Positions 30,061 through 49,422 of a stretch of DNA of 64,000 bases are shown here, in pieces. Under the pieces are notes generated by a model that was given only the letters and a program-made list of their open reading frames with translations, ran no database searches and was not told the origin of the DNA. The stretch is from Arcobacter ellisii (GTDB lineage Bacteria; Campylobacterota; Campylobacteria; Campylobacterales; Arcobacteraceae). Every line of letters starts with the position of its first letter. The stretch's first letter is position 1. The DNA is taken from contig NZ_CP032097.1 of NCBI RefSeq assembly GCF_003544915.1, positions 806,001 through 870,000 on the forward strand, written 5' to 3'. The position numbers and the translations under genes are program-made.

Positions 30061-30087
30061 AATAATGGGATAAAAATCCCATTATTT
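30061..30087. terminator. bidirectional terminator between pepA and tonB
   Basis: An inverted repeat with arms around AATGGGAT and ATCCCATT, loop AAA, flanked by A-runs and T-runs, lies between the convergent pepA and tonB stops. Confidence 0.8.
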
Positions 30088-30814: not shown

Positions 30815-31188
30815 TTTTTTGTCACTATCGATACATTAGAATAATGATTCTTTTTTAACATATCAAGTACTTCTACAAAAGATTCAAATTTTGTGTTTTT
30901 ATCTGTATTAATATGTATTGGAGTCTCTTTTGAAGATTCTAAAATAATTTTTTCAATATTCTCTAAAGTTTCAATTCTATCTTCAAAAAACAATTCTCCA
31001 CTCTCTTGAATTACCAAAATAATCTCTTTATCTGGTTTTAATTGGTCTGCATTTGAAGCATTTGGTAAAGATATTGGAATAATTCCTCTTGTAATAAAAG
31101 TTGAAGTTAATAAAACAATTGCTAAAAGAACAAGTAAAACATCAATAAATGGAATTACATTTATTGAATCATATTTCTTCAGTTTCAT
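30811..31188 (-). CDS. exbD: biopolymer transport protein ExbD
   Basis: A 125-residue inner-membrane protein. It begins with a short cytoplasmic tail and one membrane helix (INVIPFIDVLLVLLAIVLL) carrying the proton-pathway Asp at position 16. A periplasmic domain with PISLPNAS follows. It works with ExbB to energise TonB. It overlaps exbB by 20 bases and tonB by 4, so translation is tightly coupled. Confidence 0.94.
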   Translation of the reverse strand: MKLKKYDSINVIPFIDVLLVLLAIVLLTSTFITRGIIPISLPNASNADQLKPDKEIILVIQESGELFFEDRIETLENIEKIILESSKETPIHINTDKNTKFESFVEVLDMLKKNHYSNVSIVTKK

Positions 31189-31603
31189 ATAAACTCTCCA
31201 AAACTTCTGCGTATCTTCCTAAAATATTATAAAACACCATAGAGATGATAGCTACAACAAGTCCAACAGCAGTTGCTTTTAATGCTAATGCTAAAGATTC
31301 CATAATTTTTGCTGCATCAATATCTCCACTTCCCATAGTCATAAAAGTAAGCATAATCGCTAATACAGTTCCAAGCAATCCAATATATGGTGAATTTGAT
31401 GCAATTGTTCCTATAACAGTTAGATGTTTTGTTAATGCTACATCAAGTTGTTTTTTGTTTTTATATTGTTTTATATTGATTTTTTTATAAAAAATTATTC
31501 TTTCAATAAAAAACCATACAGCAATAAAACTCATAAATATTAATAGTGAAATCACCCCATAATCCACTAAATGTTTAAGAGTTTCAATGTCCATGTTTTC
31601 CAT
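31169..31603 (-). CDS. exbB: biopolymer transport protein ExbB
   Basis: A 144-residue MotA/TolQ/ExbB-family protein with three membrane segments. The conserved core is IGTIASNSPYIGLLGTVLAI, followed by LALALKATAVGLVVAI. It forms the proton channel with ExbD. It is first in the exbB-exbD-tonB unit. AAAGGA precedes the ATG, and the Fur box lies 46 bases upstream of the start. Confidence 0.94.
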   Translation of the reverse strand: MENMDIETLKHLVDYGVISLLIFMSFIAVWFFIERIIFYKKINIKQYKNKKQLDVALTKHLTVIGTIASNSPYIGLLGTVLAIMLTFMTMGSGDIDAAKIMESLALALKATAVGLVVAIISMVFYNILGRYAEVLESLYETEEI

Positions 31604-31648
31604 AATTTTTCCTTTCCATGTTTTCTAATGTGAATTTTATTACAATAT

Positions 31649-31663
31649 TGATAATAATTATCT
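31649..31663. promoter_or_regulatory. Fur box between exbB and tolC-like gene
   Basis: TGATAATAATTATCT is a near-perfect 7-1-7 inverted repeat of the Fur type, in the 93- to 147-base gap between the divergent exbB and outer-membrane-factor genes. It could control both directions. Confidence 0.8.
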
Positions 31664-31750
31664 TAATTGAAATATAAATTAACTTTTTGTTAAAAAATGA
31701 TTAAAAAAGCTGATATACAATTTCGATTGAAAAAAATGAAAGGAAATAAG

Positions 31751-32941
31751 TTGCGTAAAATAATAGTGTGTTCATTGTTTTGTAGTTTAGCCTTTGCAAA
31801 TAATTTAGAAATTTTGCAAAAGGATAAAAAAGAGTTAAGGCAATTAGATAAAAAATCAATAGAATCAAATTATGAGAGTAACAAAAATGATTGGATTTCA
31901 CCAATTAATCTAAGCTCAGGATTAAGTAGAAATCACTCTTTTTCTACTGAAAGTGATAAGTTCTCAAAAAGTGTTTCTATAGGTTTTACTCAAAGTATTT
32001 ATCAATCAGGTGGAATTGAGTTTACTATTCAATATGCAAAAGACCAATTAAATTATGATTTATTAACTTGGGAAAATGAAAATGCTCAACTTTTAGAATC
32101 TATTTATGATACTTTATTAGAGATTAGAAAGATAAAAATTCAGATAGAGCAGGGCATTTATAAACTTGCAAGTAAAGAGATAGAACTAAATATTAAAAAG
32201 ATTCAATATGAAGCAGGGAATACTGATATTGTTGAATTAAATAATGCTTTAATGAGTAAAAACACTCAAATTAAAGAGAATATCTCTTTGGAAAATTCTT
32301 TAAAAGATAAAATTTTTGAGTTATCAAAATATACAGATTTAAAATATGATGAAATTGAGATAATAGATTTTAATAATGTTTCAAAAGAGGATTATGTAAG
32401 TAAAAATATAGAGTATTTAGTAGAAGACGCAAGAGTTGAAATGTTAAATACTAACTATAAAAAAACAAAAACTAACTATCTTCCAAAAGTCTCTTTAGGA
32501 TTAAATGGTTCTTATTCAAATATTGATGATTTGATAAAAAATACAAAAAATGAAGATGAAACTTCAGGAAGTGCTTCTTTAACTTTGAGTGTTCCTTTAT
32601 ATGATTATAATAAAACAAGTAAATTAGAAGATGCAAAATTAGAGTATTTAAAACAAAAAAGTTCGGCAAATGATTTAAAAAATGAGTTAGCTTATGAGTA
32701 TGAACAAATTATAAATCAAATTGATACATATAAAAAACAAAATAAAATTATTGAAGATAATATCAAATTATATGATGATTTGATAACTGCAAATAGAGTT
32801 TCAAATGATGCTGGAATGACTTCTGCTTATGATTTAGAGGTTTTAGAAAATACAAAAAAAGTAAATGAGTATGATTTACAAATCAATGAGATAAATATCA
32901 AATTACAATTCTCAAAATTATATTTTAAAATAAAAGGCTAA
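31751..32941 (+). CDS. TolC-like outer membrane efflux protein
   Basis: A 396-residue outer-membrane factor with long alternating helices and polar strands (for example EIRKIKIQIEQGIYKLASKE and the repeat half EYEQIINQIDTYKKQNKIIE). I start at TTG 31751: AAAGGA lies 6 bases before it and the protein then begins MRKIIVCSLFCSLAFANNL, a clean signal peptide. The frame is open to an ATG at 31697, which would put 18 polar residues in front. It heads an apparent operon with an adaptor, an ABC ATPase and an ABC permease, so it should be the outer-membrane exit of a MacAB-TolC-type pump. It starts next to a Fur box. Confidence 0.85.
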   Translation: MRKIIVCSLFCSLAFANNLEILQKDKKELRQLDKKSIESNYESNKNDWISPINLSSGLSRNHSFSTESDKFSKSVSIGFTQSIYQSGGIEFTIQYAKDQLNYDLLTWENENAQLLESIYDTLLEIRKIKIQIEQGIYKLASKEIELNIKKIQYEAGNTDIVELNNALMSKNTQIKENISLENSLKDKIFELSKYTDLKYDEIEIIDFNNVSKEDYVSKNIEYLVEDARVEMLNTNYKKTKTNYLPKVSLGLNGSYSNIDDLIKNTKNEDETSGSASLTLSVPLYDYNKTSKLEDAKLEYLKQKSSANDLKNELAYEYEQIINQIDTYKKQNKIIEDNIKLYDDLITANRVSNDAGMTSAYDLEVLENTKKVNEYDLQINEINIKLQFSKLYFKIKG

Positions 32942-32950
32942 GGTAGATAG

Positions 32951-34222
32951 ATGGAAGATAAAAAGTTATTGGAAGAGTTAGAGAGTCATAGTAATAAAAA
33001 ATCAAAAAAATTCTATATTTTTGTAATACTATTTTTAGTTGTAGGTGCTGTTTTAGCCTATTATTTTTTAATTTTTAATAAAACAAATAAAAGTGAAGTT
33101 GTTGAATATGTAACAAAAAATGTAACACGAGGTGATTTATCAGTAGTTGTTAGTGCAACAGGAACTTTAAATCCTACAAATAGTGTTGAAGTTGGAGTTG
33201 AAGTATCTGGAACTTTAAAAGAGATTTATGTTGATTTTAATGATGAAGTTGAAGTTGGACAAGTTTTAGCAAGACTTGATACAAGAAAATTACAATCTGA
33301 AGTTGATGGACAAACAGCAGCTTTAGCAATTGCAAAAGCAAATCAACTTGAAAGTGAAGTTGATTTAAAAAATAAAAAATTAGTTTATGATAGAACTTTA
33401 AAAATGTTTAATAGTTCAGGTGGAAAATATCCATCAAAAAATGAGTTAGACCAAGCTAAATTTGGTTATGAAGCAGCTCTATCATCTTTACAAGCTGCAA
33501 AATCTAAAGTTGAACAAGCTTCATTTACTTTAAAAACTGCAATGCAAAATTTAGATAAAGCAGAAGTTAAATCATCAATAAAAGGTATAGTTTTAGATAG
33601 AGCCGTTGAAGTTGGACAAACACTTGCAGCTTCTATGAATGCTCCAAAACTTTTTGTTATTGCAAAAGATTTAAGAAATATGGATTTAATTGTAAGTATT
33701 GATGAATCAGATGTTGCAGATATTAAAAAAGATTTACCTGTTACTTTTACAGTTGATGCTTATCCAAATAGAACTTTTAAAGGAAAAATTAAACAAGTAA
33801 GACTTAATCCAACTGATACAAATGGAGTAGTAACTTATGAAACAGTTGTTTCAGTTGATAATGAAGAGTTACTTTTAAGACCTGGAATGACTGCAACTGC
33901 AAATATTGTTACAAAACAGAGTCTTGATAAATTGATTATTCCAAATAGTGCATTAAGATTTAAACCAAAAATGCCTCAAACTGATGAGAAAAAAGGAACG
34001 ATGACTTTTGTAGGACCTCCAAGACGTCCTTTAGGTGAAAATGCTCCAAAAGAGTTAGGAAAAAGAGAGTTTTCTCCTATATTTATTTTAGAAAATAATC
34101 AACCTAAACGTGTAATGGTTAAAGTTTTAGACAGTGATGGAAAATCAACAACTATTGAATCAAATGATTTAAAAGTAGATGATGTAGTAATTATTTCACA
34201 AAAGAGTGAAAATGCAAACTAA
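32951..34222 (+). CDS. MacA-like periplasmic adaptor (HlyD/RND membrane-fusion family)
   Basis: A 423-residue adaptor. A membrane anchor is at about 22-43 (FYIFVILFLVVGAVLAYYF). The lipoyl half-motifs are VVSATGTLNPTNSVEVGVEV SG and KSSIKGIVLDRAVEVGQ, separated by a helical hairpin of about 90 residues. Beta-barrel and membrane-proximal domains follow, with RPGMTATANIV. It links the MacB-type ATPase/permease with the outer-membrane factor. The 3' end overlaps the ATPase gene. It may export peptides, lipids or siderophores. Confidence 0.88.
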   Translation: MEDKKLLEELESHSNKKSKKFYIFVILFLVVGAVLAYYFLIFNKTNKSEVVEYVTKNVTRGDLSVVVSATGTLNPTNSVEVGVEVSGTLKEIYVDFNDEVEVGQVLARLDTRKLQSEVDGQTAALAIAKANQLESEVDLKNKKLVYDRTLKMFNSSGGKYPSKNELDQAKFGYEAALSSLQAAKSKVEQASFTLKTAMQNLDKAEVKSSIKGIVLDRAVEVGQTLAASMNAPKLFVIAKDLRNMDLIVSIDESDVADIKKDLPVTFTVDAYPNRTFKGKIKQVRLNPTDTNGVVTYETVVSVDNEELLLRPGMTATANIVTKQSLDKLIIPNSALRFKPKMPQTDEKKGTMTFVGPPRRPLGENAPKELGKREFSPIFILENNQPKRVMVKVLDSDGKSTTIESNDLKVDDVVIISQKSENAN

Positions 34223-34916
34223 TAAGACTATCATAGAGTTTAAAAATATAGTAAAAACCTATGGTTTAGGTGAAGCTAAAACTTATGCTCTAAATGGTGT
34301 TAGTTTTACAATTAAACAAGGTGAATTTATCGCTATTATGGGAGCAAGTGGAAGTGGTAAATCAACTTCTATGAATATGATAGGATGTTTAGATAAACCA
34401 AGTAGTGGTGAATATTTATTTAATGGAATAAATGTAGAAAAACTAAATAGAAATCAAATGGCAATTTTACGAAGAAACTATTTAGGTTTTGTGTTTCAAG
34501 GGTTTAATTTGCTTGGAAGAACATCTGCTTTAGAAAATGTTGAATTACCTTTGATTTATAGAAAAGTTCCTTTGGCACAAAGAAAAATATTAGCTCTAAA
34601 AGCTTTGGAAAAAGTTGGACTTGGAAGTGTAAGTCATCACACTCCAGCTGAACTTAGTGGAGGTCAGCAACAGCGTGTGGCAATTGCAAGGGCGATTGTA
34701 ACAAATCCTTTGGTGTTACTTGCAGATGAACCAACGGGAAATCTTGATAGTATAAAAAGTGTTGAGATAATGAATTTATTAAAAGAGTTAAACGAAGAGT
34801 CAGGTATTACGATTATTATGGTAACGCACGAAGAAGAGATGGCTAAGTATGCAAATAGAATCATATATTTTAGAGATGGGCATATTGATGATAGTTTAAA
34901 AAAAGGATATAAATAA
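34212..34916 (+). CDS. MacB/LolD-type ABC transporter ATPase
   Basis: About 234 residues. Walker A is GASGSGKSTSMN near residue 43, the signature is ELSGGQQQRVAIARAI, Walker B is VLLADEPTGNLDS, and the switch histidine is in MVTHEEEMA. This is the short MacB/LolD/FtsE class. I start at ATG 34212, with AAGAG ahead of it; a GTG at 34206 is possible. It overlaps the adaptor gene upstream by 11 bases, and its last base is the first base of the permease ATG. Confidence 0.9.
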   Translation: MQTNKTIIEFKNIVKTYGLGEAKTYALNGVSFTIKQGEFIAIMGASGSGKSTSMNMIGCLDKPSSGEYLFNGINVEKLNRNQMAILRRNYLGFVFQGFNLLGRTSALENVELPLIYRKVPLAQRKILALKALEKVGLGSVSHHTPAELSGGQQQRVAIARAIVTNPLVLLADEPTGNLDSIKSVEIMNLLKELNEESGITIIMVTHEEEMAKYANRIIYFRDGHIDDSLKKGYK

Positions 34917-36127
34917 TGTTAACTAATGCCTTATTAATAGCCTTAAAAGAGATTAGAAGAAATCTTTTAAGATCTTTTTTAACAATCCTTGGAATTGTAA
35001 TTGGAGTTGCTTCTGTAATAGCAATGGTTATGATTGGAGATGGAACAACTGCAAATGTAAAACAAAGTATTTCTAAACTTGGAACAAATATGCTAACTTT
35101 AAGAGTAGGGCAAGAAAGACGAGGAGCTCCAAGAGATGATAATAGTGCAAAACCATTTACACAAGATGATATAGTTGCAATAAAAAATGATATTCAAAAT
35201 ATAAAAGCAGTTGCAGCTGAAAACTCAACAAAAATGAATATAGTTTATGGAAATAAAAGTACAAGTTCCTCTGTAATTGGTACTTCTAATGACTATTTTA
35301 TTATTAAAGATTGGGAGTTACTTGAAGGAAGAACTTTTGAAGAGAGTGAGTTAAATAGTGGAAAATCTTCTTGTATTGTAGGAACAACAATAGTAAAACA
35401 GTTATTTGATGCAGAAAGTCCTATTGGAGCAAATATAAGACTTAAAAATATCTCTTGTAATATTATTGGAGTTTTAAAATCAAAAGGTGCAGCAGCTTTT
35501 GGTAATGACCAAGATGAGATTATTATTGTTCCTCTTAAAATGTATCAAAGTAAAATAAAAGGTAATAAAGATATATCTTCAATTTTAATTTCTATAACTG
35601 AAGGAAAATATATTGAAGGTGCAAAAACAGATATAACTTTATTGATGCAAGAAAGAAGAGCTATAAAAGTTGGTGAAGCTGATAATTTCCACATACGTGA
35701 TATGGAAGATTTATTATCAACTATGACATCTACAACTAAAATGCTTACATATTTACTTGGTTCAATTGCAGCAATTTCTTTACTTGTTGGAGGAATTGGA
35801 ATTATGAATATAATGTTAGTTTCTGTAACTGAAAGAACAAGAGAAATAGGAACTAGACTTGCTATTGGAGCAATGGAGAGTGAAGTTTTACTTCAATTTT
35901 TAGTTGAAGCAGTTGTTTTATCAATGTTTGGGGGAATTATAGGAATTGTTTTTGGGATGTGTATTGGTTACATAGTTGTTAATTCAATGGATTTATTGTT
36001 TATTATTAATAAGCAAATAATTATGATTTCATTTTTCTTTTCTACACTGATTGGAGTTGTTTTTGGATATTTTCCAGCTAGAAAAGCTGCAAGATTAAAT
36101 CCAATTGAAGCTTTACGATATGAATAA
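34916..36127 (+). CDS. MacB-type ABC transporter permease (FtsX-like)
   Basis: A 403-residue four-helix permease. The N-terminal helix is ALKEIRRNLLRSFLTILGIVIGVASVIAM. A large periplasmic MacB_PCD domain spans about 50-270. Three helices at the end form the FtsX domain (LLVGGIGIMNIMLVSVTERTREIGTRLAIGA). Separation from the ATPase differs from E. coli MacB, where they are fused. A strong palindrome ends the unit at 36126-36158. With the Fur box upstream of the operon, iron-controlled export is plausible. Confidence 0.9.
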   Translation: MLTNALLIALKEIRRNLLRSFLTILGIVIGVASVIAMVMIGDGTTANVKQSISKLGTNMLTLRVGQERRGAPRDDNSAKPFTQDDIVAIKNDIQNIKAVAAENSTKMNIVYGNKSTSSSVIGTSNDYFIIKDWELLEGRTFEESELNSGKSSCIVGTTIVKQLFDAESPIGANIRLKNISCNIIGVLKSKGAAAFGNDQDEIIIVPLKMYQSKIKGNKDISSILISITEGKYIEGAKTDITLLMQERRAIKVGEADNFHIRDMEDLLSTMTSTTKMLTYLLGSIAAISLLVGGIGIMNIMLVSVTERTREIGTRLAIGAMESEVLLQFLVEAVVLSMFGGIIGIVFGMCIGYIVVNSMDLLFIINKQIIMISFFFSTLIGVVFGYFPARKAARLNPIEALRYE

Positions 36128-36158
36128 ATATTAAGTAGAAATTTTCTACTTAATATTT
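36126..36158. terminator. bidirectional terminator between the MacB permease and ankyrin genes
   Basis: A 16-bp perfect inverted repeat (arms around TTAAGTAGAAA and TTTCTACTTAA) with A-rich and T-rich ends. It sits on the convergent stop codons at 36127 and 36146. Confidence 0.82.
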
Positions 36159-36655
36159 AACTTTTCCATTAAAAAATCAATTTTCAGATTTTTTGCTAAA
36201 TTAAGAGCACTATTTCCTAAAAAATCTTCATGTTCTATATTTGCACCATTTTCTAAAAGGTACTTAATACTATTTTGTTTATTATATAAGATTGCATAAA
36301 TTAAAGGAGTAGAGTTTATATCATCTGTTTCATTAATATCAATGCCACAATTTTTTAGGCATTTAATGACTTTTATGTTATCCATATAAACAGCATAATT
36401 TATAGCAGATAGATTTGTAGATACTTCTGTACTTATATTTAGTTCAAGTAGTTTTTTTATTACATCAGTTTTATTTTTACAAATTGCCCAATATAATGCA
36501 TTTCTTCCTTTATAATCCCTTGCATTTATATTTAGAACCTGCAGTCTAAACATCTCTATTAACATTTCCCATTTTTCTCCATCTACAAGAGAAGAAAAGA
36601 TATTTGCAACAATTTTTTCATTTAGATTTTTTTCAAGAAGATGATTATTAGACAT
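36146..36655 (-). CDS. ankyrin-repeat protein
   Basis: A 169-residue protein made of about four ankyrin repeats (NARDYKGRNALYWAICKNKT, NLSAINYAVYMDNIKVIKCL, NSTPLIYAILYNKQNSIKYL, GNSALNLAKNLKIDFL). There is no signal peptide or membrane segment, so it is probably cytoplasmic. Its binding partner is unknown. A perfect Fur-type 15-mer (36674-36688) lies 18 bases before the start, so it should be expressed under iron limitation. Ankyrin proteins next to iron or oxidative-stress genes are known in other bacteria, but no firm function follows. Confidence 0.8.
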   Translation of the reverse strand: MSNNHLLEKNLNEKIVANIFSSLVDGEKWEMLIEMFRLQVLNINARDYKGRNALYWAICKNKTDVIKKLLELNISTEVSTNLSAINYAVYMDNIKVIKCLKNCGIDINETDDINSTPLIYAILYNKQNSIKYLLENGANIEHEDFLGNSALNLAKNLKIDFLMEKLNIK

Positions 36656-36673: not shown

Positions 36674-36688
36674 TGATAATTGTTATCA
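36674..36688. promoter_or_regulatory. Fur box upstream of the ankyrin gene
   Basis: TGATAATTGTTATCA is an almost perfect 7-1-7 inverted repeat, placed right before the ankyrin gene start and after the 76-residue gene end. Confidence 0.8.
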
Positions 36689-36721: not shown

Positions 36722-36952
36722 TTAATTAAGCTGAGGTTTTTCTTCTTTTGTTTTTTTAATTTGATTATTTTTTTTTGGTTGGTAAAGCATATGGTGCCAT
36801 AATGCGAAGCCACAAAATGCAACTCCTGCAACAACGTGAGTTTTTTTAGCAATAGAGTTTTTCATAAACATTGATGTTACTACTGTAGCACCTAACGTTG
36901 CTGTCATTCCAATTTTTGCAGCTTCTCTTTGAAGTTCTAAATCAAATTTCAT
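36722..36952 (-). CDS. small membrane protein, end of ferrosome-like island
   Basis: A 76-residue protein with two hydrophobic stretches (IGMTATLGATVVTSMFM and VVAGVAFCGFALWHHMLY), glycine/alanine rich. A lysine-rich tail (KKNNQIKKTKEEK) is probably cytoplasmic. I know no named family for it. Its start overlaps the end of the 38-residue gene by 11 bases, so both are one transcript, driven from the region with two Fur boxes. Its hydrophobic, glycine-containing helices resemble those of other proteins in the neighbouring ferrosome-like cluster, so it may be a component of that system. Confidence 0.68.
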   Translation of the reverse strand: MKFDLELQREAAKIGMTATLGATVVTSMFMKNSIAKKTHVVAGVAFCGFALWHHMLYQPKKNNQIKKTKEEKPQLN

Positions 36953-37058
36953 TATTTATTTTCCTTTTTTTTCTTCTTTCCATAGTTTTTACTGTTTTGT
37001 TTACTGTTTTAACTGTTAAAACGGCTGTTAAAGCTGTTGCAAGAAATAATATTGGCAC
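36942..37058 (-). CDS. 38-residue small membrane protein (GTG start)
   Basis: A short gene beginning GTG at 37058, with AAAAGGA five bases upstream. It ends in TGA at 36942-36944 and overlaps the next gene by 11 bases. The product starts MPILFLATALTAVLTVKTVN: a short hydrophobic N terminus, then a basic tail (MERRKKRK). Length, ribosome binding site, overlap and position directly behind two Fur boxes argue that it is translated. Function unknown; a small anchor or regulator of the ferrosome-like system is an inference. Confidence 0.55.
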   Translation of the reverse strand: MPILFLATALTAVLTVKTVNKTVKTMERRKKRKINNEI

Positions 37059-37069
37059 AAAAATCCTTT

Positions 37070-37084
37070 TGATAATAATTATCA
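37070..37084. promoter_or_regulatory. Fur box (perfect) upstream of the small membrane-protein genes
   Basis: TGATAATAATTATCA is a perfect 7-1-7 inverted repeat, 12 bases upstream of the GTG at 37058. A -10-like TATACT lies at 37100-37095 on the minus strand, so this site would cover the transcription start. Confidence 0.85.
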
Positions 37085-37114
37085 TAATTCTATCAGTATA
37101 TACTTAAATAAAAC

Positions 37115-37129
37115 TGATAACTATTATCA
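37115..37129. promoter_or_regulatory. second Fur box upstream of the small membrane-protein genes
   Basis: TGATAACTATTATCA matches the 7-1-7 pattern at 14 of 15 positions. It lies where the -35 region of the TATACT promoter (37100-37095, minus strand) would be, so two Fur dimers would bracket the promoter. Confidence 0.78.
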
Positions 37130-37134
37130 TATAA

Positions 37135-39243
37135 TTAGATTTTTACACCTTTTATTGAATTAAACAGTAATCCAATAGTTGTACCATTATGTAAAACTGC
37201 TGTTACAATTGGAGAAAATACCCCAAAAGTAGCACCTGCTAAAATACAAGAGTTTATTCCAACTGTCGCATTAAAGTTATTGTTTATTAAATTCATAGTT
37301 TTATTTGCATACTCTTTTGCTTCAACAACAGCAGCAATATCATCTTTCAGTAAAGATATATCAGCAGTTGCTTTTGCTATATCTGCACCTCTACTCATTG
37401 AAATTCCAACATGTGCAGAAATAAGTGCAGGAGCATCATTTATTCCATCTCCAACAAAAGCTACTTTTTTACCTTCAGCCATTAACTCTTTTACTATATT
37501 TGCTTTATCTTGAGGTAAAAGTTCAGCTCTTACTTCATCAATCCCTAATTCACTAGCAATTTTTAAAGCTTTTTCTTTTGTATCGCCAGTTAACATTATA
37601 ATATTTTTAACACCTAATTTCTTTAGTTTTTTTATTGATTCTTTTGCATTACTTCTTAACTCATCACTTAAACCAATTGTTCCAAGTAATTTCCCATCGT
37701 AACCAACATATAATAGAGTTTTTCCATTTTTTAAAGAGTTTTCAATTTTCTCTTTATGTTCTCCAAAATCTATTTTTTCATCATCTTCTAAAAAATGTCT
37801 ACTTCCAATAACTACAGATTTTCCATTTACTTCTGTTTTTACTCCATGAGCCACTATAAATTCAACTTCTTCATGGTGCATATGTACAAAACCTCTTTGT
37901 TTTGCAGCCTTTACAACAGCTTCAGCCACTGGATGAAAATAGTGTTCTTCAGTTGAAGCAGTTAGATTTAAAATTTCATCTTCACTCCATTTATCACTAT
38001 AAGATTCAACACTTATAACTTCAAGTTCACCAGCTGTTAAAGTTCCTGTTTTATCAAAAACAAAAGTATCAGCACTATTTAAAGCCTCAATAGATTTCGC
38101 ACCTTTTATCATAATTCCATTATGTCCAGCTTTTGAAATAGTTGATTTAAACGCTACAGGAGTTGCAAGTTTTAAAGCACAAGAATAATCAGCTTGTAAA
38201 ATAGAAGCTACTCTTTCAAAATCTTTTGCAAATATATATGAAACTCCAGCTAAGCCTAAAGTTACAGGAACTAATTTATTTGCAAGTTTATTTGCTTTTA
38301 ATTGAACTGATGATTTTTCATTTAAAGAGTTTTCTATATAGTGTTTTATTCTTTGAGTTGCTGTATTTGCTCCAACATGTTCAGCCCAAATTCTAAATCT
38401 TCCTTCTTCAACAATTGTTCCAGAAATAACTCTATCACCTCTATATTTTACAACTGGTTGTGCTTCTCCTGTCATTGAAACTTGATTTACACTACCACTT
38501 CCTTCAATAATATGTCCATCAACTGGAATTGTATTTCCAATTCCAACGACAACTATATCTCCAACTTGAATGTTTTCACTTTTTACTAAGATTTCAGTGA
38601 TTTTATCATCAATCTTTTTTTCTATCCAAGCCTCTTCAACATTTGGTTTTGATAACTCTTTTAATAAATCATCACTTTTATGAACAGTCGTCTCTTCAAT
38701 ATATTCACCAAGTTCAAGCATAGCATTTGTTGAGTTTGCAGCCAAATAATCTTTTCTGTATATTGAAATTGCAACTGCTGCACTTTCTAATACTTTTGAA
38801 GTTAAACCTTCATTTAACAACTCTTTTGAACCTTCAACCAATAAAGGAACACAAGCAGCAGTAGTAAGAGTTGCTTTTAAAGCATTATTTGTAATAAATC
38901 TTTCTGTTACTAAGGCTGAACTAGCTCTAATTATTCCTTTTATAGAAGGTTCTTCACTACTTACACAAGATACACAAACAGCTGCAACTTCTTCTTCACA
39001 AGATTTTAATAACTCTTCAATTGTTAAATTATTTAAAATCTCTTCAATTTTTGAAGTTATATCACTTTTTAATTCAAAGATAATACTGTAAGCTTTTTTA
39101 TTAATTCTTACACTTTCTATCTCTTTTATTTTTCTAAAGTAATTTTTTAAAATCTCTTCATCAATATATTTTTCTTTTAATAAGAAGAGTTTATATCTTA
39201 CTCTAAAAGCAGTTTGATGTACTTTTACAAATTTGTTTTTCAT
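37135..39243 (-). CDS. P1B-type metal ATPase without CPC motif (FezB-like, ferrosome candidate)
   Basis: A 702-residue heavy-metal ATPase. The catalytic motifs are present: TGE at 258-260, DKTGT at 397-401, HP at 437-438 and GDGINDAP at 598-605. The N terminus (VHQTAFRVRYKLFLL) resembles an HMA fold without CxxC. The membrane metal site reads YSCALKLATP (353-362) instead of CPC, with only one cysteine. This matches my memory of the P1B-6 group, whose members (FezB) build ferrosome iron-storage compartments. A CVSC pair occurs at 90-93. It ends a compact minus-strand operon with small glycine-rich membrane proteins, a ferritin-like protein and an HMA-like protein. Metal specificity cannot be proved by sequence; iron is inferred from context and Fur boxes. 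Confidence 0.85.
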   Translation of the reverse strand: MKNKFVKVHQTAFRVRYKLFLLKEKYIDEEILKNYFRKIKEIESVRINKKAYSIIFELKSDITSKIEEILNNLTIEELLKSCEEEVAAVCVSCVSSEEPSIKGIIRASSALVTERFITNNALKATLTTAACVPLLVEGSKELLNEGLTSKVLESAAVAISIYRKDYLAANSTNAMLELGEYIEETTVHKSDDLLKELSKPNVEEAWIEKKIDDKITEILVKSENIQVGDIVVVGIGNTIPVDGHIIEGSGSVNQVSMTGEAQPVVKYRGDRVISGTIVEEGRFRIWAEHVGANTATQRIKHYIENSLNEKSSVQLKANKLANKLVPVTLGLAGVSYIFAKDFERVASILQADYSCALKLATPVAFKSTISKAGHNGIMIKGAKSIEALNSADTFVFDKTGTLTAGELEVISVESYSDKWSEDEILNLTASTEEHYFHPVAEAVVKAAKQRGFVHMHHEEVEFIVAHGVKTEVNGKSVVIGSRHFLEDDEKIDFGEHKEKIENSLKNGKTLLYVGYDGKLLGTIGLSDELRSNAKESIKKLKKLGVKNIIMLTGDTKEKALKIASELGIDEVRAELLPQDKANIVKELMAEGKKVAFVGDGINDAPALISAHVGISMSRGADIAKATADISLLKDDIAAVVEAKEYANKTMNLINNNFNATVGINSCILAGATFGVFSPIVTAVLHNGTTIGLLFNSIKGVKI

Positions 39244-39245
39244 TT

Positions 39246-39593
39246 TTACTGTTCTTGTTGTGCTTGCATTTGAGCTTTTGCGTCTTCGTATCTCTCTTTT
39301 AACTCTTCAATTCCAGCTTGAAAAAGTTCACTTCCTTTTCCAAAGGCTTTTAAAATAGTCTCTTGAGCATTTTTATTTGTAAGAAGATAAGTAACAGCAG
39401 CACCTAAAAGTGCACCTTTTACAAAATCATTATTTATAAATCCATTAGAATTAGCTACTGGCATTTGATTTTGAGTAGGAGTTTGTAATGAATTTATATT
39501 TTGATTAATATAAGGATTTTGATTAATATTTATTCCATTTTGAGTATTTTTAGGTCTACTGTTTTCAATATTAAAATCATATTGATTATTCAT
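39246..39593 (-). CDS. glycine-zipper membrane protein with coiled tail
   Basis: A 115-residue protein. The first half is polar and low complexity (many Asn, Gln, Pro: NGININQNPYINQNINSL). A short hydrophobic stretch follows (FVKGALLGAAVTYLLT), and the C terminus is a charged helix (ELKERYEDAKAQMQAQQEQ). I start at ATG 39593, because GGAGG lies 6 bases before it; an in-frame TTG at 39608 is less likely. It lies 2 bases before the P1B ATPase gene and overlaps the preceding gene by 8 bases. The composition recalls scaffold-like proteins of bacterial organelles, but I know no named family. Confidence 0.65.
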   Translation of the reverse strand: MNNQYDFNIENSRPKNTQNGININQNPYINQNINSLQTPTQNQMPVANSNGFINNDFVKGALLGAAVTYLLTNKNAQETILKAFGKGSELFQAGIEELKERYEDAKAQMQAQQEQ

Positions 39594-39948
39594 AATCTTC
39601 CTCCTCAACAGGGATATTTTGATTTGTTAAATATTTTTGGTCAAGTTTTTCTTCAATTACTTCAATTGCATAAATTCCCATCATTCCAATACTTGCAGCT
39701 GTTAATGCTTTGAATAATCCACCTTCTTGACCTAAATAATTTGCAGTTGCAATTGCACTTCCTGTAGCAATTGCTCCTTGAGAAGTTCTTTTAATAGTAT
39801 CTTTAATTGCCTCTTTTTTTGTTATTTGTCTTGATTGTGCTTTTTTATAATTAATTGCTCCACTAATAACAGCACTAGCAACAGCTCCACTAATAACATG
39901 ACCTAAAACATTTCTTGGTGTTCCGGTATTGATAGTAATATCTTTCAT
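39586..39948 (-). CDS. glycine/alanine-rich membrane protein
   Basis: A 120-residue protein with two hydrophobic, glycine/alanine-rich stretches (NVLGHVISGAVASAVISGAI and AIATGSAIATANYLG, then AASIGMMGIYAIEVI). The C terminus is acidic (VEEEDYE). The small-residue spacing suggests tight helix packing in a membrane, reminiscent of magnetosome proteins such as MamC/MamD types, though I cannot assign homology. It starts ATG with overlap to the previous gene (ATGA) and overlaps the next by 8 bases, so it belongs to the operon. Confidence 0.65.
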   Translation of the reverse strand: MKDITINTGTPRNVLGHVISGAVASAVISGAINYKKAQSRQITKKEAIKDTIKRTSQGAIATGSAIATANYLGQEGGLFKALTAASIGMMGIYAIEVIEEKLDQKYLTNQNIPVEEEDYE

Positions 39949-40145
39949 TCTTCTTCCTTAGCTTTTTCTTTTTTCTTCTCTTCTATGCACTCTTTTGTAG
40001 CACAAATAGTCTCTTTTATTTCATTTACATTTTCTTTTGTTTTTTCAAATAGTTTTGAAGTTTTTTCTTTTAGTTTGTCTTTATTACTAAAAGCAATAAC
40101 AGCACCAGCACCTACAGCCAATCCTAATATAAATGGTAAAGCCAT
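39945..40145 (-). CDS. YtxH-like small membrane protein
   Basis: A 66-residue protein with an N-terminal membrane helix rich in glycine and alanine (PFILGLAVGAGAVIAFSN). A long, highly charged helix follows (KLKEKTSKLFEKTKENVNEI and KKKEKAKEEE). It has two cysteines (ICATKECIEE). The arrangement resembles YtxH/GvpP-like proteins, which bear one short helix and a long coiled region. It lies 3 bases after the ferritin-like gene and overlaps the next start. Confidence 0.62.
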   Translation of the reverse strand: MALPFILGLAVGAGAVIAFSNKDKLKEKTSKLFEKTKENVNEIKETICATKECIEEKKKEKAKEEE

Positions 40146-40148
40146 TTT

Positions 40149-40832
40149 TTACTCCTCTTCTTCAATATTTTTTTTTGAAATATAGTTATTTAAAAGTGCA
40201 ATAATAGCACCACCTAAAACAGCACCACTAACCATAGATAGATTTAATTTTGAAAAGATTTTAGATATTGAACTTTCATCAATATTTCCAGACATAATAT
40301 CATCTAAAATAACTTGATATTCTCCAAGTTTTTCCATAATATTTTCTTGATTTATATTTGTATTATTTCCATTTGAATAGTGATTTATTACACAATTTCT
40401 AAATGCAGGTAGATGATTATTATATGAAGCAGCTTGTAGTTTGAAAAGAGTATCTTTTATATCATCTTCAACTGCATAACCTAATAAATTGTTATACATA
40501 GCAATATTTGCTATTTCTCCTGCAACTCCCATTTCACAACACTCAATTAAAGTGTTTGGAATTTCAATTCTTGAAGCCCAATTATTTATTGGAACTTCAA
40601 TATTATATTTTTGCATTAGTTGAATAAGTGTAGCATAGTGAATAGCTTCTGCCTCTTTAATATTTACAAAAGGTTGAACTAAACCAAATTTTTCAATTAT
40701 TTTTGTATATGTTTCATAAGCTTTGAACTCATCATATACAGCAATTCTTAAAATCTGAGTTTGAACAGGAATGTCACTATTTATATCAACTCTTGCTTTT
40801 ATTAATAAGGATTCATCAATATTTTCTTCCAT
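40149..40832 (-). CDS. ferritin-like four-helix protein with C-terminal membrane anchor
   Basis: A 227-residue protein. The helical part contains carboxylate/histidine positions of a diiron ferritin-like bundle: YDEFKAYE near 33-40, KEAEAIHYATL with an ExxH at 62-65, GEIANIAMYNN with Glu106, and His140. This pattern fits the DUF2202/ferritin-like group. The tail has a hydrophobic glycine-zipper helix (MVSGAVLGGAIIALLNNYI), so the protein is probably membrane-tethered. Its ATG overlaps the preceding stop. In this cluster it could oxidise or store iron at the membrane; that role is inferred. The domain assignment is moderately sure. Confidence 0.68.
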   Translation of the reverse strand: MEENIDESLLIKARVDINSDIPVQTQILRIAVYDEFKAYETYTKIIEKFGLVQPFVNIKEAEAIHYATLIQLMQKYNIEVPINNWASRIEIPNTLIECCEMGVAGEIANIAMYNNLLGYAVEDDIKDTLFKLQAASYNNHLPAFRNCVINHYSNGNNTNINQENIMEKLGEYQVILDDIMSGNIDESSISKIFSKLNLSMVSGAVLGGAIIALLNNYISKKNIEEEE

Positions 40833-41146
40833 TAAATTACCTCCTTTGCAAGTTTGTTTATGAGTATTGATAACTCTTCTAAATTTTCATTTTTAACTAA
40901 ATCTTCCCAAAGTTTTGGTTTAAAAATATTTGGGTCGTAAGTAATTGTAACAGATGCAATAATTTTATTTATTTTAATATTTATTATTCCATCTATTTTT
41001 TTTGGTAAATCTTCTATATCACTTAAAGAGATATTTCCAGCATTTTGTGTAATTTTTGGATTAACTCTTACTCTTAGCCTTCCAGGAGTATGTGCAATAA
41101 TAGAAAAATAACTAGCAATTTTTATAATATCATCTGTACTTATCAA
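40832..41146 (-). CDS. HMA-like domain protein (FezC-like candidate)
   Basis: A 104-residue protein with a metal-binding-domain-like fold. IIAHTPGRLRVRVNP near residue 16-30 matches the HMA_2-type start seen also at the N terminus of the P1B ATPase (VHQTAFRVRY). It lacks the CxxC metal site. The start is TTG at 41146, with AAAGGA 6 bases upstream. It is the first gene after the Fur-controlled promoter at 41199-41222. An HMA-containing companion is a hallmark of ferrosome clusters as I recall. Confidence 0.68.
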   Translation of the reverse strand: MISTDDIIKIASYFSIIAHTPGRLRVRVNPKITQNAGNISLSDIEDLPKKIDGIINIKINKIIASVTITYDPNIFKPKLWEDLVKNENLEELSILINKLAKEVI

Positions 41147-41198: not shown

Positions 41199-41222
41199 AT
41201 TATAAACTAATAATTATTATCA
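41199..41222 (-). promoter_or_regulatory. Fur box and -10 of the ferrosome-like operon
   Basis: On the minus strand, TATAAT is at 41204-41199. A Fur-type inverted repeat (TAATAATTATTATCA on the plus strand) is at 41208-41222 in the -35 to -10 region. It lies between the fur stop (41228) and the first operon gene (41146), so Fur would block polymerase binding when iron is abundant. Confidence 0.75.
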
Positions 41223-41227
41223 AAAGA

Positions 41228-41677
41228 TTATTGACATCTTTCACATAAGCCATAAATTGTCATTACATGTTCTTTTAAAATAAAATTGTTTTTACTTGCA
41301 ATTTTAATTTGATTTAATTCAATTAAATCATCAGTAAACTCAATAATTGTGCCACAAGAAGTACAAATAAGGTGGTCATGATGATCTGAAAGATTAAGTT
41401 CATATCTTAAAATCCCATCTCCAATATCTAACTGATTTACAAGTTTCATATCATGAAAAAATTTCATAGCTCTATAAACTGTTGCAATACCGATAGATAC
41501 ATTATAAATTGTTTTTATCTCATTTGATATATCTTCAGCTGTTAGATGTTTTTTTGAAAAGTATAAAACTTTTAAAATATAATCTTTTTGTATTGAATTT
41601 TTTAAACCAATTTTTGAAACTTGTTTTTTAAAATTTTTTAAAAATATATTAAATGCTACTTCTTGATTATTTTCCAT
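41228..41677 (-). CDS. fur: Fur family transcriptional regulator
   Basis: A 149-residue metalloregulator. The winged helix is in the first 90 residues (LKNSIQKDYILKVLYFSKKHLTAEDI and IGIATVYRAMKFFHDM). The metal and dimer region has HHDHLICTSCGTIIEF and a C-terminal YGLCERCQ, so both CxxC pairs for structural zinc are present. It is close to typical Fur rather than PerR or Zur, but sensing of iron is inferred from the many Fur boxes nearby. Its ATG shares bases with the stop of a 49-residue gene (TAATG). A Fur-type site upstream (41881-41895) suggests self-regulation. Confidence 0.88.
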   Translation of the reverse strand: MENNQEVAFNIFLKNFKKQVSKIGLKNSIQKDYILKVLYFSKKHLTAEDISNEIKTIYNVSIGIATVYRAMKFFHDMKLVNQLDIGDGILRYELNLSDHHDHLICTSCGTIIEFTDDLIELNQIKIASKNNFILKEHVMTIYGLCERCQ

Positions 41678-41826
41678 TAGTTTATACCTTTTATTAAGAT
41701 AAATATTACACTAAAACCAAGAGTTAGTCCATATAATTTCCATAAATTTTTATGAATTTTTACATTTGTTTTGTACAAAGATGAATTTGAGATTTTTTCA
41801 TTATTAACATCCATAAAGTTTTTCAT
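41677..41826 (-). CDS. 49-residue single-helix membrane protein upstream of fur
   Basis: A small gene with AAAAGGAG five bases before its ATG (41826). Its TAA (41677-41679) overlaps the fur start. The product is polar for 30 residues (MKNFMDVNNEKISNSSLYKT at the start), then has one short membrane helix (LYGLTLGFSVIFILIKGIN). The strong binding site, overlap with fur and Fur-type site ahead of it support translation. Function unknown. Confidence 0.6.
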   Translation of the reverse strand: MKNFMDVNNEKISNSSLYKTNVKIHKNLWKLYGLTLGFSVIFILIKGIN

Positions 41827-41880: not shown

Positions 41881-41895
41881 TGATTGTAATTATCA
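41881..41895. promoter_or_regulatory. Fur box between the 49-residue gene/fur unit and the 130-residue gene
   Basis: TGATTGTAATTATCA matches the 7-1-7 pattern with two differences in the left half. It lies in the 127-base divergent gap and could control both sides, including fur itself. Confidence 0.65.
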
Positions 41896-41953: not shown

Positions 41954-42346
41954 ATGTTAAATGTTACTCTTTTAACATCAGTTGCAAAAAGTGCCTTAGT
42001 TGGGGCAGTTGCGACAAAATTGGTTGATACATTAGTCTCTTCAAAAATAAATAATAAAATTGAACAAAATAAATGGCTTAGAGATACAAAATTGGATTTA
42101 TATTCTAAATTAACAGAAGAGATTATGTTAATTGATGATGAAAATTTTCAAACACAAATTAGAGAAATAAAAAGAATTTCAGCAAAAATCATACTTTTGG
42201 TAAATGATAGAAAATTAGAAGAGAAAATTGAAGATTATATAAATAGATTAAACAGATTTTCTCAAAATGAAAAAATTGAGAGAAATGCCTTATCTTTAGT
42301 AAATAAAGATATGATTTCTTATTTACAAAAAAATATTCGATTATAG
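41954..42346 (+). CDS. hypothetical protein with hydrophobic N terminus and helical body
   Basis: A 130-residue protein. The first 25 residues are hydrophobic and glycine/alanine rich (SVAKSALVGAVATKLVDTLV). The rest is charged and predicted helical (DTKLDLYSKLTEEIMLIDDE). I recognise no family. AAAAGGA precedes the ATG. It is divergent from the fur unit across a Fur-like site and near the ferrosome-like operon. Its N-terminal helix resembles those of the glycine-rich membrane proteins in that operon, so it may belong functionally, but this is weak. Confidence 0.6.
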   Translation: MLNVTLLTSVAKSALVGAVATKLVDTLVSSKINNKIEQNKWLRDTKLDLYSKLTEEIMLIDDENFQTQIREIKRISAKIILLVNDRKLEEKIEDYINRLNRFSQNEKIERNALSLVNKDMISYLQKNIRL

Positions 42347-45371: not shown

Positions 45372-47498
45372 ATGAAAAATATTGAAAGAAAAATAATTCC
45401 ATTATCACTTTGTTTGTCATTAGCATTATCTGCAAATGCAAAAGCAGAAGAAAAAACTATTCTGGAAGAGATTAAAGTATCTGAAGAGCTTGGATATTAT
45501 ATTAGTGAAGGTACAACAGAAGGGGTAGATTCATATACAACAAAAAGTATGGGAACAGCAACAAAATTAAATTTATCTGTTAAAGATACCCCACAATCTG
45601 TAAAAGTATTGACGAACCAATATTTAAAAGATACAAATATAAGTTCTTATCAAGATGTACTTGAAAAAATACCTGGAGTTACTTTAAATAGATGGGATGA
45701 AAGAGTTAATGCAAGTGCAAGAGGATTTGATATTGACTATTACAAAATTGATGGAATGCCCACTTATTCAACTTATAATGAAAGAGATTTTGATTTATCT
45801 GTATATGATAGAGTTGAATTAGTAAAAGGAGCAAATGGATTAACAACTGGTTATGGTAATCCTTCAATGAGTATTAATCTTGTTAGAAAAAGAGCAAATA
45901 GTAAAGAATTAACAGGAGATATTTCAGCAACTGCTGGTTCTTGGGACTCTTATGGAATAGCAGCAGATGTGGGTTCTGCTTTAAATGAAAGTGGAAGTGT
46001 AAGAGGAAGAGTTGTTTTAAAACATGAAGAACAAGATTCATATATGGATAATTATAAAAGAGAAAATAATTTATTTTATGGAGTAATAGATTCAGATTTA
46101 AGTGATACTACTTATTTATCAACGGGAGTTTCATATCAAAATTTAGATAGAGATGGTGTTAGATGGGGTGGTTTACCTGCTTTTTATAGTGATGGAACAA
46201 GAACTGATTTTAGTAGGTCAAAAACTGTAAGTGATGATTGGACTTATTGGAATAGTGAAATAAAATCTGTATTTGCTGATTTAAAACAATATTTACCAAA
46301 AGATATGACTTTAAATTTATCTTATGCTTATGATGAAATAAATACTGATACAGCTTTATTATATTTTTCTGGTAAAGTTAATAAAGTAGATGGTAGTGGG
46401 TTACAATATATGGATTGGGAAGCTCAAACTCAGAATAAACAACATAATATTGATTTATCTATGAACATACCTTATAAACTTGCTAAAAAAGAACATGAAT
46501 TAGTGATTGGAACTTCTTATAATTTAGATAAAACAACAAAATATGAAGGAAGATATCCAAATGGATATTACTCTACACTAAACAATTTTTATGATTATAA
46601 TTTAACACTTCCAAGTGCTTCAAGTTCTGATGCACCTTATATTTTACAGCCAGAACAAATTGAACAAAAAGCAATTTATTTAGCAAATAATATTTTATTG
46701 ATGGATGATTTAAAATTTATTGTAGGAGCAAGAGTTAGTAACTGGGAATATACAAGTAAAAATTCAACAAAACAGAGTAGAAAATTTGATAATGAATTAA
46801 CACCTTATGTTGGATTAGTTTATGATTTAGACAAAAATCATTCAATCTATACAAGTTATACAAGTATTTTTAAACCACAAGATAAAAAAACAGTTAGTGG
46901 GGAGTATTTAGACCCAATTGAAGGGAATAATTATGAAATAGGAATTAAAGGAGAATATTTTGATAATAGATTAAATACATCTTTAGCACTATTTAGAATA
47001 GAACAAGATAATGTAGCAGAAGATGATCCTTCTGGAACTTTTGTTCCTGGAACAACAACAGTAGCAAGTGTATCAGCTGATGGAGTAACAAGTAAAGGAT
47101 TTGAATTTGATATAGCAGGACAAATAACTGATAACTTCAGTATGGATTTTGGATTAGCAAATTTTGAAGCTGAAGATGCAAATGGAGAAAAGTTTAATAC
47201 AAAGGCTTCAAGAACAACAGCCAATATTTTTGCGAAATATAAAGTAAATGAATATAGAGCAGGTCTTGGATTAAATTATAAAAGTAAAATTTATACTGGA
47301 ACAGGTTTATCTGAAATTACACAAGACGCTTATATAACTACTGATTTAATGTTAGGTTATGAATTATCAAAAAATACAGATTTACAATTAAATATAAATA
47401 ATATTTTTGATAAAGAGTATTACACTGGAATTGGAGCAAATTCAATGGTTTATGGTGATCCAAGAAATACAACACTTACAATGAGATATAAATTCTAA
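45372..47498 (+). CDS. TonB-dependent siderophore receptor (FhuE/FpvA-like)
   Basis: A 708-residue outer-membrane receptor. A signal peptide (IIPLSLCLSLALSANAKA) is followed by a TonB-box-like segment EEIKVSEE. The plug domain has TPQSVKVLTNQYLKD, LEKIPGVTLNRWDER and YDRVELVKGANGL, typical of the siderophore-receptor subgroup. A 22-strand barrel follows and ends in an aromatic MRYKF, as outer-membrane proteins do. The ligand is not readable; hydroxamate-type siderophores are common for this subgroup. A Fur box and TATAAT precede it. A terminator (47497-47526) follows, but small membrane and PepSY genes continue in the same direction. Confidence 0.9.
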   Translation: MKNIERKIIPLSLCLSLALSANAKAEEKTILEEIKVSEELGYYISEGTTEGVDSYTTKSMGTATKLNLSVKDTPQSVKVLTNQYLKDTNISSYQDVLEKIPGVTLNRWDERVNASARGFDIDYYKIDGMPTYSTYNERDFDLSVYDRVELVKGANGLTTGYGNPSMSINLVRKRANSKELTGDISATAGSWDSYGIAADVGSALNESGSVRGRVVLKHEEQDSYMDNYKRENNLFYGVIDSDLSDTTYLSTGVSYQNLDRDGVRWGGLPAFYSDGTRTDFSRSKTVSDDWTYWNSEIKSVFADLKQYLPKDMTLNLSYAYDEINTDTALLYFSGKVNKVDGSGLQYMDWEAQTQNKQHNIDLSMNIPYKLAKKEHELVIGTSYNLDKTTKYEGRYPNGYYSTLNNFYDYNLTLPSASSSDAPYILQPEQIEQKAIYLANNILLMDDLKFIVGARVSNWEYTSKNSTKQSRKFDNELTPYVGLVYDLDKNHSIYTSYTSIFKPQDKKTVSGEYLDPIEGNNYEIGIKGEYFDNRLNTSLALFRIEQDNVAEDDPSGTFVPGTTTVASVSADGVTSKGFEFDIAGQITDNFSMDFGLANFEAEDANGEKFNTKASRTTANIFAKYKVNEYRAGLGLNYKSKIYTGTGLSEITQDAYITTDLMLGYELSKNTDLQLNINNIFDKEYYTGIGANSMVYGDPRNTTLTMRYKF

Positions 47499-47526
47499 AA
47501 AAGAGACTTTTAAAGTCTCTTTTTTA
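47497..47526 (+). terminator. Rho-independent terminator after the first receptor
   Basis: The hairpin has arms AAAGAGACTTT and AAGTCTCTTT followed by a T-run. It comes right after the receptor stop and may only reduce expression of the genes behind it. Confidence 0.85.
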
Positions 47527-47539
47527 TTTTAGGAGAAAA

Positions 47540-47845
47540 ATGAAAAAATTAATAAAATCTTTATCTATTCCTGAATCAAGTGGAAAAAAGATAGGTTTAT
47601 TTAGAACAATTTGTGCAATATTTGGTGGTTTGTTAGTTGCTTATCTTTCAATGACTTTACTAATATTTTTAATTCCAGCTAGTGTTGGAGAATCAATAAT
47701 AATTCCTTTACTTTTAAATACTTTTGTTTGGGCAGTTTGTGCTTTATGGATTAGTTTATCTTCTACAAAATTAAATGCTTTATTAAAAGTTATTGTTCCA
47801 TCTTCTATTTTTTCTATTTTGATAATAATTTTATATAATATTTGA
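47540..47845 (+). CDS. small three-helix membrane protein of an iron-uptake operon
   Basis: A 101-residue protein with three hydrophobic segments (AIFGGLLVAYLSMTLLIFLI, LLLNTFVWAVCALWI, SSIFSILIIILYN). It resembles the short iron-uptake-associated proteins (DUF3649-type) that accompany siderophore receptors and PepSY proteins, though my family call is tentative. AGGAG precedes the ATG. The PepSY gene follows after 9 bases. Confidence 0.65.
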   Translation: MKKLIKSLSIPESSGKKIGLFRTICAIFGGLLVAYLSMTLLIFLIPASVGESIIIPLLLNTFVWAVCALWISLSSTKLNALLKVIVPSSIFSILIIILYNI

Positions 47846-47854
47846 GGTAAATAA

Positions 47855-49408: not shown

Positions 49409-49422
49409 AAGGATTTACAAAT

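Follow-up and report, generated by a model that had tools for sequence, protein, structure and literature searches.

The 64,000-nucleotide window analysed here (contig NZ_CP032097.1, positions 806,001 to 870,000 of the forward strand) comes from the genome of Arcobacter ellisii, a single contig of 2.80 Mb, and carries at 36722-41146 on its minus strand a compact operon followed by a short second transcript (Table 1). From the gene for an HMA_2-like protein through that for a P1B-type ATPase, adjacent genes overlap or lie at most 3 bases apart, and ratios of nonsynonymous to synonymous change (pN/pS), obtained against up to three relatives, were 0.13-0.72 for the cluster genes and an adjoining ankyrin-repeat gene. 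We read the locus as probably a ferrosome-type (fez) operon, widespread in Campylobacterota, with a ferritin-like subunit (FTN) as a regular member. Features legible in the sequence that speak for this are the class of the ATPase, the co-linear small proteins, a FezC-like protein, the membrane-anchored FTN and strong Fur boxes ahead of the second transcript. Ferrosomes themselves have been described only recently. An earlier annotation of the same sequence (the original prediction) had proposed a ferrosome-like cluster of eight genes within 36942-41146. The genes are real, but that range holds seven of them, the DUF4405-like gene overlapping it by only 11 bases; the cluster assignment gains support from the clade of the ATPase, from co-linearity with a cluster of Azospirillum and from the FezC-like protein, which the original prediction had not named.

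Table 1. Genes and regulatory sites at the locus, in the direction of transcription (window coordinates)
Feature	Position	Strand	Description
s49	41677-41826	minus	49-aa open reading frame (ORF) with a single transmembrane (TM) segment; its stop and the Fur-family start overlap
Fur-family regulator	41228-41677	minus	PF01475, 112 bits
Candidate main-operon promoter	41199-41221	minus	Fur-like palindrome (41207-41221), 2 nt before TATAAT (41199-41204)
HMA_2-like protein	40832-41146	minus	104 aa; TTG start; no Cys; PGRLRVRV motif
FTN	40149-40832	minus	Ferritin-like (DUF2202) domain at about residues 25-150 and glycine-rich C-terminal membrane anchor
s66	39945-40145	minus	66 aa; TM anchor at N-terminus, then charged, probably cytosolic tail
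MamC-like protein	39586-39948	minus	Glycine-rich membrane protein, 120 aa
NQ	39246-39593	minus	N-tail rich in Asn/Gln, TM anchor, YtxH-like C-terminal helix
P1B-6-type ATPase (FezB-like)	37135-39243	minus	702 aa; SCALKLATP in TM4, HNGTT in TM6, DKTGT
Two near-perfect Fur boxes	37070-37129	minus	37115-37129 and 37070-37084, ahead of second transcript
s38	36942-37058	minus	38-aa TM peptide with Lys/Arg tail; proposed GTG start
DUF4405-like (FezC-like) protein	36722-36952	minus	76 aa; His39 and His53 are candidate haem ligands

The ATPase carries YSCALKLATP in place of CPC, as the original prediction had pointed out, and LHNGTT in TM6 besides. PMC9374683 names an HN motif in TM6 as a hallmark of P1B-6 ATPases, and a review table assigns this class to Fe(II) (PMC7558416). 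SCALKLATP together with LHNGTT was found in 40/40 rows made up of the window and its relatives, which are mostly labelled Campylobacterota with some metagenome-assembled genomes (MAGs) labelled otherwise; this count was made without L006, L042 and L043, where the ORF is split or partial. All 12 genomes fetched later had the variant SCALKL[T/V]TP with HNGTTI. The closest ATPase relatives are from Arcobacter and Aliarcobacter. A CPC motif in TM4, the trait of P1B-1 and P1B-2 copper and zinc exporters, is absent from the window ATPase, and the three other P1B ATPases of the same genome are all of the CPC type. In a tree of 33 of the 57 aligned rows (24 were omitted for size, and a Shinella ATPase had been left out earlier for a frame with six stops), the window ATPase shared a clade with the HN-bearing ATPases from Azospirillum, Vibrio and Cereibacter (bootstrap and Shimodaira-Hasegawa-like approximate likelihood-ratio test, 100/100); Escherichia coli CopA and ZntA fell outside it, as did the three CPC ATPases of the genome. 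The tree program warned of long branches, some of them meeting, and found 15 rows uneven in composition; independently of the tree, the TM4 and TM6 motifs agree with the split. By its motifs and its placement away from copper and zinc exporters, the protein is of the P1B-6 type, in line with the class originally predicted. Clustering with copper or zinc exporters, an outcome that the original prediction had named as one that would refute it, did not occur.

Against family models, the ATPase scored 499 bits to the general heavy-metal model TIGR01525 and did not reach the cut-off of the copper model (337 versus 397). It also passed the cut-off of TIGR01512, a cadmium family (365 versus 313.5 bits), which could indicate that the cluster exports copper, zinc or cobalt and sits by chance in an iron region. 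Such a cluster is very improbable given the missing CPC, an HMA_2-like partner devoid of cysteine, the tree, the separate CPC-type ATPases of the genome, the Fur boxes of the second transcript and the presence of ferritin-like and FezC-like partners; for the ATPase itself, we rejected identity as a copper or zinc exporter from the motif and the tree.

A second P1B ATPase is encoded upstream of HMA_2 in some related loci (L028:3528-5768, L030:3528-5708, L031:3699-5885, L032:3789-5981, L035:3881-6052, L130, L133 and L141), mostly just after a Fur-family gene. It has SCPC[AS]T[VI]LAAS in TM4, an H[IL][GA]HT-like motif rather than HN in TM6 and a similar Arg-containing N-terminus.

The small proteins were compared to clusters of other phyla, reached through plasmids, using one profile per family built from relatives (26 to 43 sequences each). 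A six-gene cluster of Azospirillum brasilense (L082, NZ_CP059451.1) has the same order of HMA_2, s66-like, MamC-like, YtxH/NQ and ATPase genes, with profile matches of 1e-13 for HMA_2 (also reached in Vibrio), 0.003 for s66, which is weak, 1e-5 for the MamC-like protein, 4e-13 for NQ and 5e-247 for the ATPase. The MamC-like profile further matched proteins of Vibrio (7e-11) and Cereibacter (2e-4), and NQ was found directly before the ATPase in both (7e-19 and 2e-16, respectively). Small membrane proteins and ATPase thus stand in a conserved order, as in ferrosome clusters. Because its orthologues precede the ATPase in Azospirillum, Vibrio and Cereibacter, NQ is a standard member of the cluster, which overturns the earlier view of this Asn/Gln-rich protein as a non-standard one. 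Its unusual part is the N-tail, with 36% Asn plus Gln (41 tails) versus 10% over 422 ORFs of at least 150 aa from the loci; Lys and Arg are richer after the TM segment in 42/42 copies, so that by the positive-inside rule the tail should face the lumen or periplasm.

The HMA_2-like protein scored 30.0 bits to PF19991, exactly the cut-off (30). The original prediction had noted that it lacks CxxC; there is no cysteine at all, and the protein is a candidate iron-binding or adaptor protein. The MamC-like family is matched by the NCBIfam model NF038051 (MamC) in 27/32 members at E ≤ 1e-3 (best 3.2e-8), and reversed-sequence controls gave 0/7 matches, which speaks against a composition artefact. Against the same model, the Vibrio counterpart matched at 8.8e-9, and those of Azospirillum and Cereibacter gave no match. 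In the second transcript, s38 probably starts at GTG 37058 rather than at an ATG formed by the Fur box, and it was found in 25 of 42 other loci (26 counting the window).

The DUF4405-like protein matched its family at E < 0.05 in 31/34 members, His39 and His53 are kept in 34/34, and its profile reaches the tail of the first gene of the Azospirillum cluster (3e-4). PMC10979944 describes the FezC of ferrosomes as a DUF4405-like protein that binds haem, with a model in which homodimerisation creates the haem sites. A SpoIIAA-like domain was detected in 2/34 FezC-like members (best 2.5e-19), likely the long Sulfurospirillum ORFs L030:10201-10824 and L035:10193-10840.

For FTN, predicted originally as a membrane-anchored ferritin-like protein, profile searches agree with a ferritin-like domain. 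DUF2202 (PF09968) matched 30/37 members at E ≤ 1e-3 (best 1.2e-7) and is annotated on 13/14 plasmid relatives; the FTN profile finds the solved protein MJ0754 (PDB 3q4n; E 6.6e-6) and, weakly, encapsulated ferritin (PDB 5n5e; E 0.0073). Among 81 distinct sequences, a C-terminal hydrophobic stretch was present in 80, with another within the first 150 residues in five. Residues kept in these sequences were E35 (77), E62 (62), H65 (65), E106 (81), N138 (81) and H140 (69), and the ferritin-like fold makes E35, E62, H65, E106 and H140 likely metal ligands. No family match to a VIT1-like transporter was found in FTN, which has a single C-terminal hydrophobic stretch and so does not have the make-up of MbfA (Er-VIT1). 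The literature search returned no mention of MJ0754, DUF2202 or PF09968, and a term search of the Arcobacter butzleri genome paper (PMC2147049) found neither 'ferritin' nor 'P-type ATPase'.

To place the membrane anchor of FTN, a profile of residues 163-222 was run separately from a ferritin-domain query of residues 1-152. Against 870 ORFs from six plasmid loci outside Campylobacterota, the best eight anchor matches listed were all small proteins of P1B clusters (E 2e-5 to 0.95, the top one in Cereibacter), and the ferritin domain found nothing better than E 2.6 in the same ORFs. A weak FTN hit in Cereibacter was accordingly rejected as a ferritin domain, as the match covers the anchor only. 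Plasmid relatives from other phyla match FTN within about residues 11-150 only (12/14 records). Within 5,160 ORFs of the loci L005-L046, matches other than FTN at E < 1 comprised 32/41 NQ, 21/41 s66 and 3/40 MamC-like proteins, together with 3 of about 4,840 other ORFs (1,244 of these with a TM-like stretch), one of which lies inside the L030 operon. Reversing the 5,160 ORFs gave 2 s66, 2 FTN, 4 others and 0 NQ at the same threshold. In our reading, FTN couples a ferritin-like domain to the type of anchor common in this operon, and it would then sit in the same membrane as the ATPase.

The window FTN, used as a single sequence, matched in 57/298 Campylobacterota genomes, and the DNA pattern of the ATPase TM4 occurred in 105/397, including 76 of the 298. 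Of these 298 genomes, 40 had both, 17 had FTN alone and 36 had the pattern alone. FTN without FezB was rejected as an explanation of the 17: the 12 fetched all carry the ATPase in the same order, a thirteenth (L078) shows the ATPase start, and the check covered 13 of the set, leaving four outside it. Likewise, 7/7 genomes fetched from the pattern-only set contained FTN by profile (L127-L131, L138 and L146), with 29 of the 36 lying outside this check. In 82/82 distinct copies, the FTN gene has HMA_2 and s66 as its immediate neighbours on either side, and the ATPase starts within 2.2 kb; these copies derive from 97 of 105 loci, the other eight being set aside for want of a full FTN (contig ends in L014, L029, L033, L039, L041 and L043, a truncated FTN in L134 and none in L135). 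Among the loci selected by their ATPase (L005-L046), FTN was present in all 36 with enough flank, including a highly divergent locus from Helicobacter (L040); contig ends interrupt another six. In 20 further ATPase-selected genomes, it was full-length in 18. The earlier expectation that the ferritin-like protein is not a standard ferrosome member agrees with the absence of its domain from the four outside clusters examined.

Several of these loci are of interest for their setting. The entire operon including FTN is found on a 133-kb Arcobacter plasmid (L085, CP129951.1), a few kb from an integrase gene, and a second Arcobacter plasmid (CP134847.1) matches both ATPase and FTN. Three MAGs labelled Gammaproteobacteria (L027, L042 and L044) have the set with FTN, for which transfer or mislabelling are possible; in the class of one such MAG, the TM4 pattern was present in 1/369 genomes, that MAG itself. 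For a MAG labelled Desulfosporosinus (L032), contig number and match place are identical to those of a genome of the family Arcobacteraceae.

A protective role for FTN would also fit part of these data. Here the operon would still be a ferrosome operon, and FTN an add-on outside iron loading, namely a rubrerythrin-like membrane scavenger of peroxide or oxygen. The rubrerythrin profile matches 9/37 FTN members, the ligands are partly lost in about a fifth of copies and FTN is truncated or missing in 2/20 loci, all of which would suit an accessory. The fixed operon position, the residues E106 and N138 kept throughout along with H140 in most copies, and an anchor like that of the core proteins point instead to a structural role, and we hold the add-on to be a possible but doubtful account.

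Fur-type sites had been predicted before both transcripts, and the evidence differs between the two. The boxes before the second transcript are strong, the best agreeing with the consensus at 16/19 positions, a score reached by 0/60 shuffles; the site before HMA_2 (41207-41221) is weaker, with 14/19, reached by 5% of 60 shuffles. Across loci, a site of at least 14/19 follows the ATPase in 26/42, compared to 64/326 control gene starts of the same loci (rank-test p 7e-6), and one of at least 15/19 in 17/42 compared to 48/326. Before HMA_2, at least 14/19 was reached in 14/36 loci (rank-test p 0.001 against the same controls, 64/326), and a variable element like TTGATAATGA..TTTATAATAAG occupies a near-fixed place in 12 loci inspected of the 36. 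Fur control of the first transcript is, on these numbers, weakly supported. Such sites on a promoter would suggest repression under plentiful iron, as with C. difficile FezA and FezB, which are under Fur repression according to an excerpt of a review (PMC12574912). The fur gene that the original prediction placed directly upstream is indeed a Fur-family gene, and many loci have such a gene a short way upstream of HMA_2. The genome encodes four, however, and this one ranks second as a Fur match (112 bits versus 146 for the best); its reading as the main Fur of the cell is not supported.

Next to this regulator, s49 is a possible first gene of the upstream transcript. It has homologues in 14/42 loci (L005-L046), of which 13 lie directly before a Fur-family gene; in L016, the one exception, no Fur hit was found beside the homologue. 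A divergent gene for a 130-aa protein (41954-42346) has a Fur-like site (41881-41895, judged by eye) in common with the s49-fur transcript, no convincing family match and homologues in 14/42 loci. At the other end, the ankyrin-repeat gene (36146-36655) adjoins the cluster with its own near-perfect Fur-box palindrome (36674-36688, judged by eye), and homologues occur just downstream of the DUF4405-like gene in 4/42 loci. The flanks at 30086-36127 and 45372-54258 look like an iron-acquisition region, with TonB/ExbB/ExbD-like, MacAB-TolC-like, PepSY-like and PiuC-like genes and two TonB-dependent receptors, named from their translations alone.

A working scheme can be proposed from these parts. 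Iron scarcity would lift Fur-type repression and the genes would be made, as suggested by the Fur-type sites and by fez control in C. difficile. The small glycine-rich membrane proteins may shape and mark a membrane domain or vesicle, into whose lumen the P1B-6 ATPase would pump cytosolic Fe(II), perhaps assisted by the cysteine-free HMA_2 protein. Judging from work on FezC, the DUF4405-like protein could move electrons across the membrane and so change the redox state of the stored iron. FTN, possibly facing the cytosol, may collect iron at the membrane, oxidise or buffer it there and shield the store from oxygen.

The chief rival dispenses with the organelle, the same proteins forming a platform for iron(II) efflux within the plasma membrane, where the ATPase would export iron, the small proteins would cluster the ATPase and FTN would feed it cytosolic iron in the manner of MbfA. 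Here, the literature offers models: in MbfA, a cytosolic ferritin-like domain acts as a ferroxidase and iron transport depends on it (PMC7762939), and PacL1 cooperates with a P1B ATPase at zinc-efflux foci in the membrane (PMC9374683). Moreover, the sequence does not prove a closed vesicle, and the transcript that includes the ATPase has a weak Fur site ahead of it. The strong Fur boxes of the second transcript nonetheless suggest expression at low iron, the wrong time for efflux, and FTN is without a transporter domain. Co-linearity with the six-gene cluster also argues against efflux, in that Rhodopseudomonas palustris ferrosomes are formed from six fez genes (PMC12016538, excerpt). We consider the efflux platform rather unlikely.

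A number of observations count against a ferrosome-type operon with FTN as a regular part, or against elements of that reading. P1B-6 membership does not fix the metal of the ATPase, for which Fe(II) is a probable assignment, and the Azospirillum cluster serves as a proxy for proven fez genes. Three window proteins fall short of their family thresholds: the MamC-like copy (25.1 bits versus a curated NF038051 cut-off of 100), FTN (19.5 bits versus 22 for PF09968) and the DUF4405-like protein, whose weak Pfam match (E 0.014) is below the cut-off. Profile searches found no match for s38 in the Azospirillum, Vibrio or Cereibacter clusters. In FTN, E62 is absent from 19/81 sequences, H65 from 16/81 and H140 from 12/81, and the flanking charges leave its orientation undecided. 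The anchor likeness consists of weak single E-values (best 2e-5 outside the phylum and 2e-3 within) and of enrichment; when the 870 ORFs were reversed, a MamC-like protein was the single match below E 1 (0.24), and among the 5,160 ORFs at E < 10 the contrast fades, with 31 others forward compared to 13 NQ and 27 others reversed. A site of at least 15/19 precedes HMA_2 in 1/36 loci, below the 48/326 of ordinary gene starts. Lastly, in two of the 20 further loci FTN is truncated (L134) or missing (L135), and neither has a MamC-like hit, so that FTN and the MamC-like protein are not indispensable everywhere.

If a ferrosome-type operon is the right reading, this kind of iron storage would also occur in a phylum that includes many microaerobic and host-associated members. 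To our knowledge, how ferrosomes are loaded and kept safe is unsettled, and an FTN fixed in the operon across Campylobacterota offers a definite candidate for the step at which iron is loaded or oxidised. The anchor common to the small proteins offers a testable idea for protein sorting to the organelle membrane, and two known ways of handling stored iron may operate jointly in one device. More speculatively, Campylobacterota might possess hybrid ferrosomes, in which a DUF2202 ferroxidase was grafted on the common anchor and lipid and ferritin storage were joined, the MamC-like protein marking a root shared with magnetosomes; we offer this tentatively, as an idea that may well prove wrong. The literature search returned no report joining ferrosomes with Campylobacterota, its scope not including the founding ferrosome papers, which may list Campylobacterota carriers of FezB; the two hits for ferrosome and Campylobacter appear to deal with other subjects (a review of gut metals and a diet study on C. 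difficile).

Ferrosome (fez) clusters are said to have been described in Desulfovibrio magneticus, Rhodopseudomonas palustris, Shewanella putrefaciens and Clostridioides difficile, reportedly by Grant in 2022 and Pi in 2023. Compared by way of the Azospirillum proxy, the window cluster is like them in its P1B-6-type ATPase, candidate FezC-like (DUF4405-like) protein, small membrane proteins and Fur-type boxes. It differs in having a ferritin-like subunit between HMA_2 and s66 and in encoding its FezC-like protein on a second transcript, without the HMA_2 part seen in Azospirillum. There, the first gene fuses an HMA_2 domain to a DUF4405-like tail, at the opposite end from that of the window, and the cluster has neither a ferritin-like domain nor a match to s38. 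The six Azospirillum genes may be the same six as the R. palustris fez genes. With magnetosomes, the operon shares a likeness of its 120-aa protein family to MamC, and no other magnetosome family was found among the scanned window proteins. For FTN, the rhizobial MbfA is alike in tying a cage-less ferritin-like domain to membrane iron transport, but that domain is fused to a VIT1-like transporter, whereas FTN is held by one anchor and its partner, a P-type ATPase, is a separate protein. Encapsulated ferritin is alike as a ferritin-like protein working with a separate compartment; that compartment is a protein shell, for which no gene was found among the ten window proteins scanned for families. 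On this comparison, MbfA and encapsulated ferritin appear to be the best precedents for FTN.

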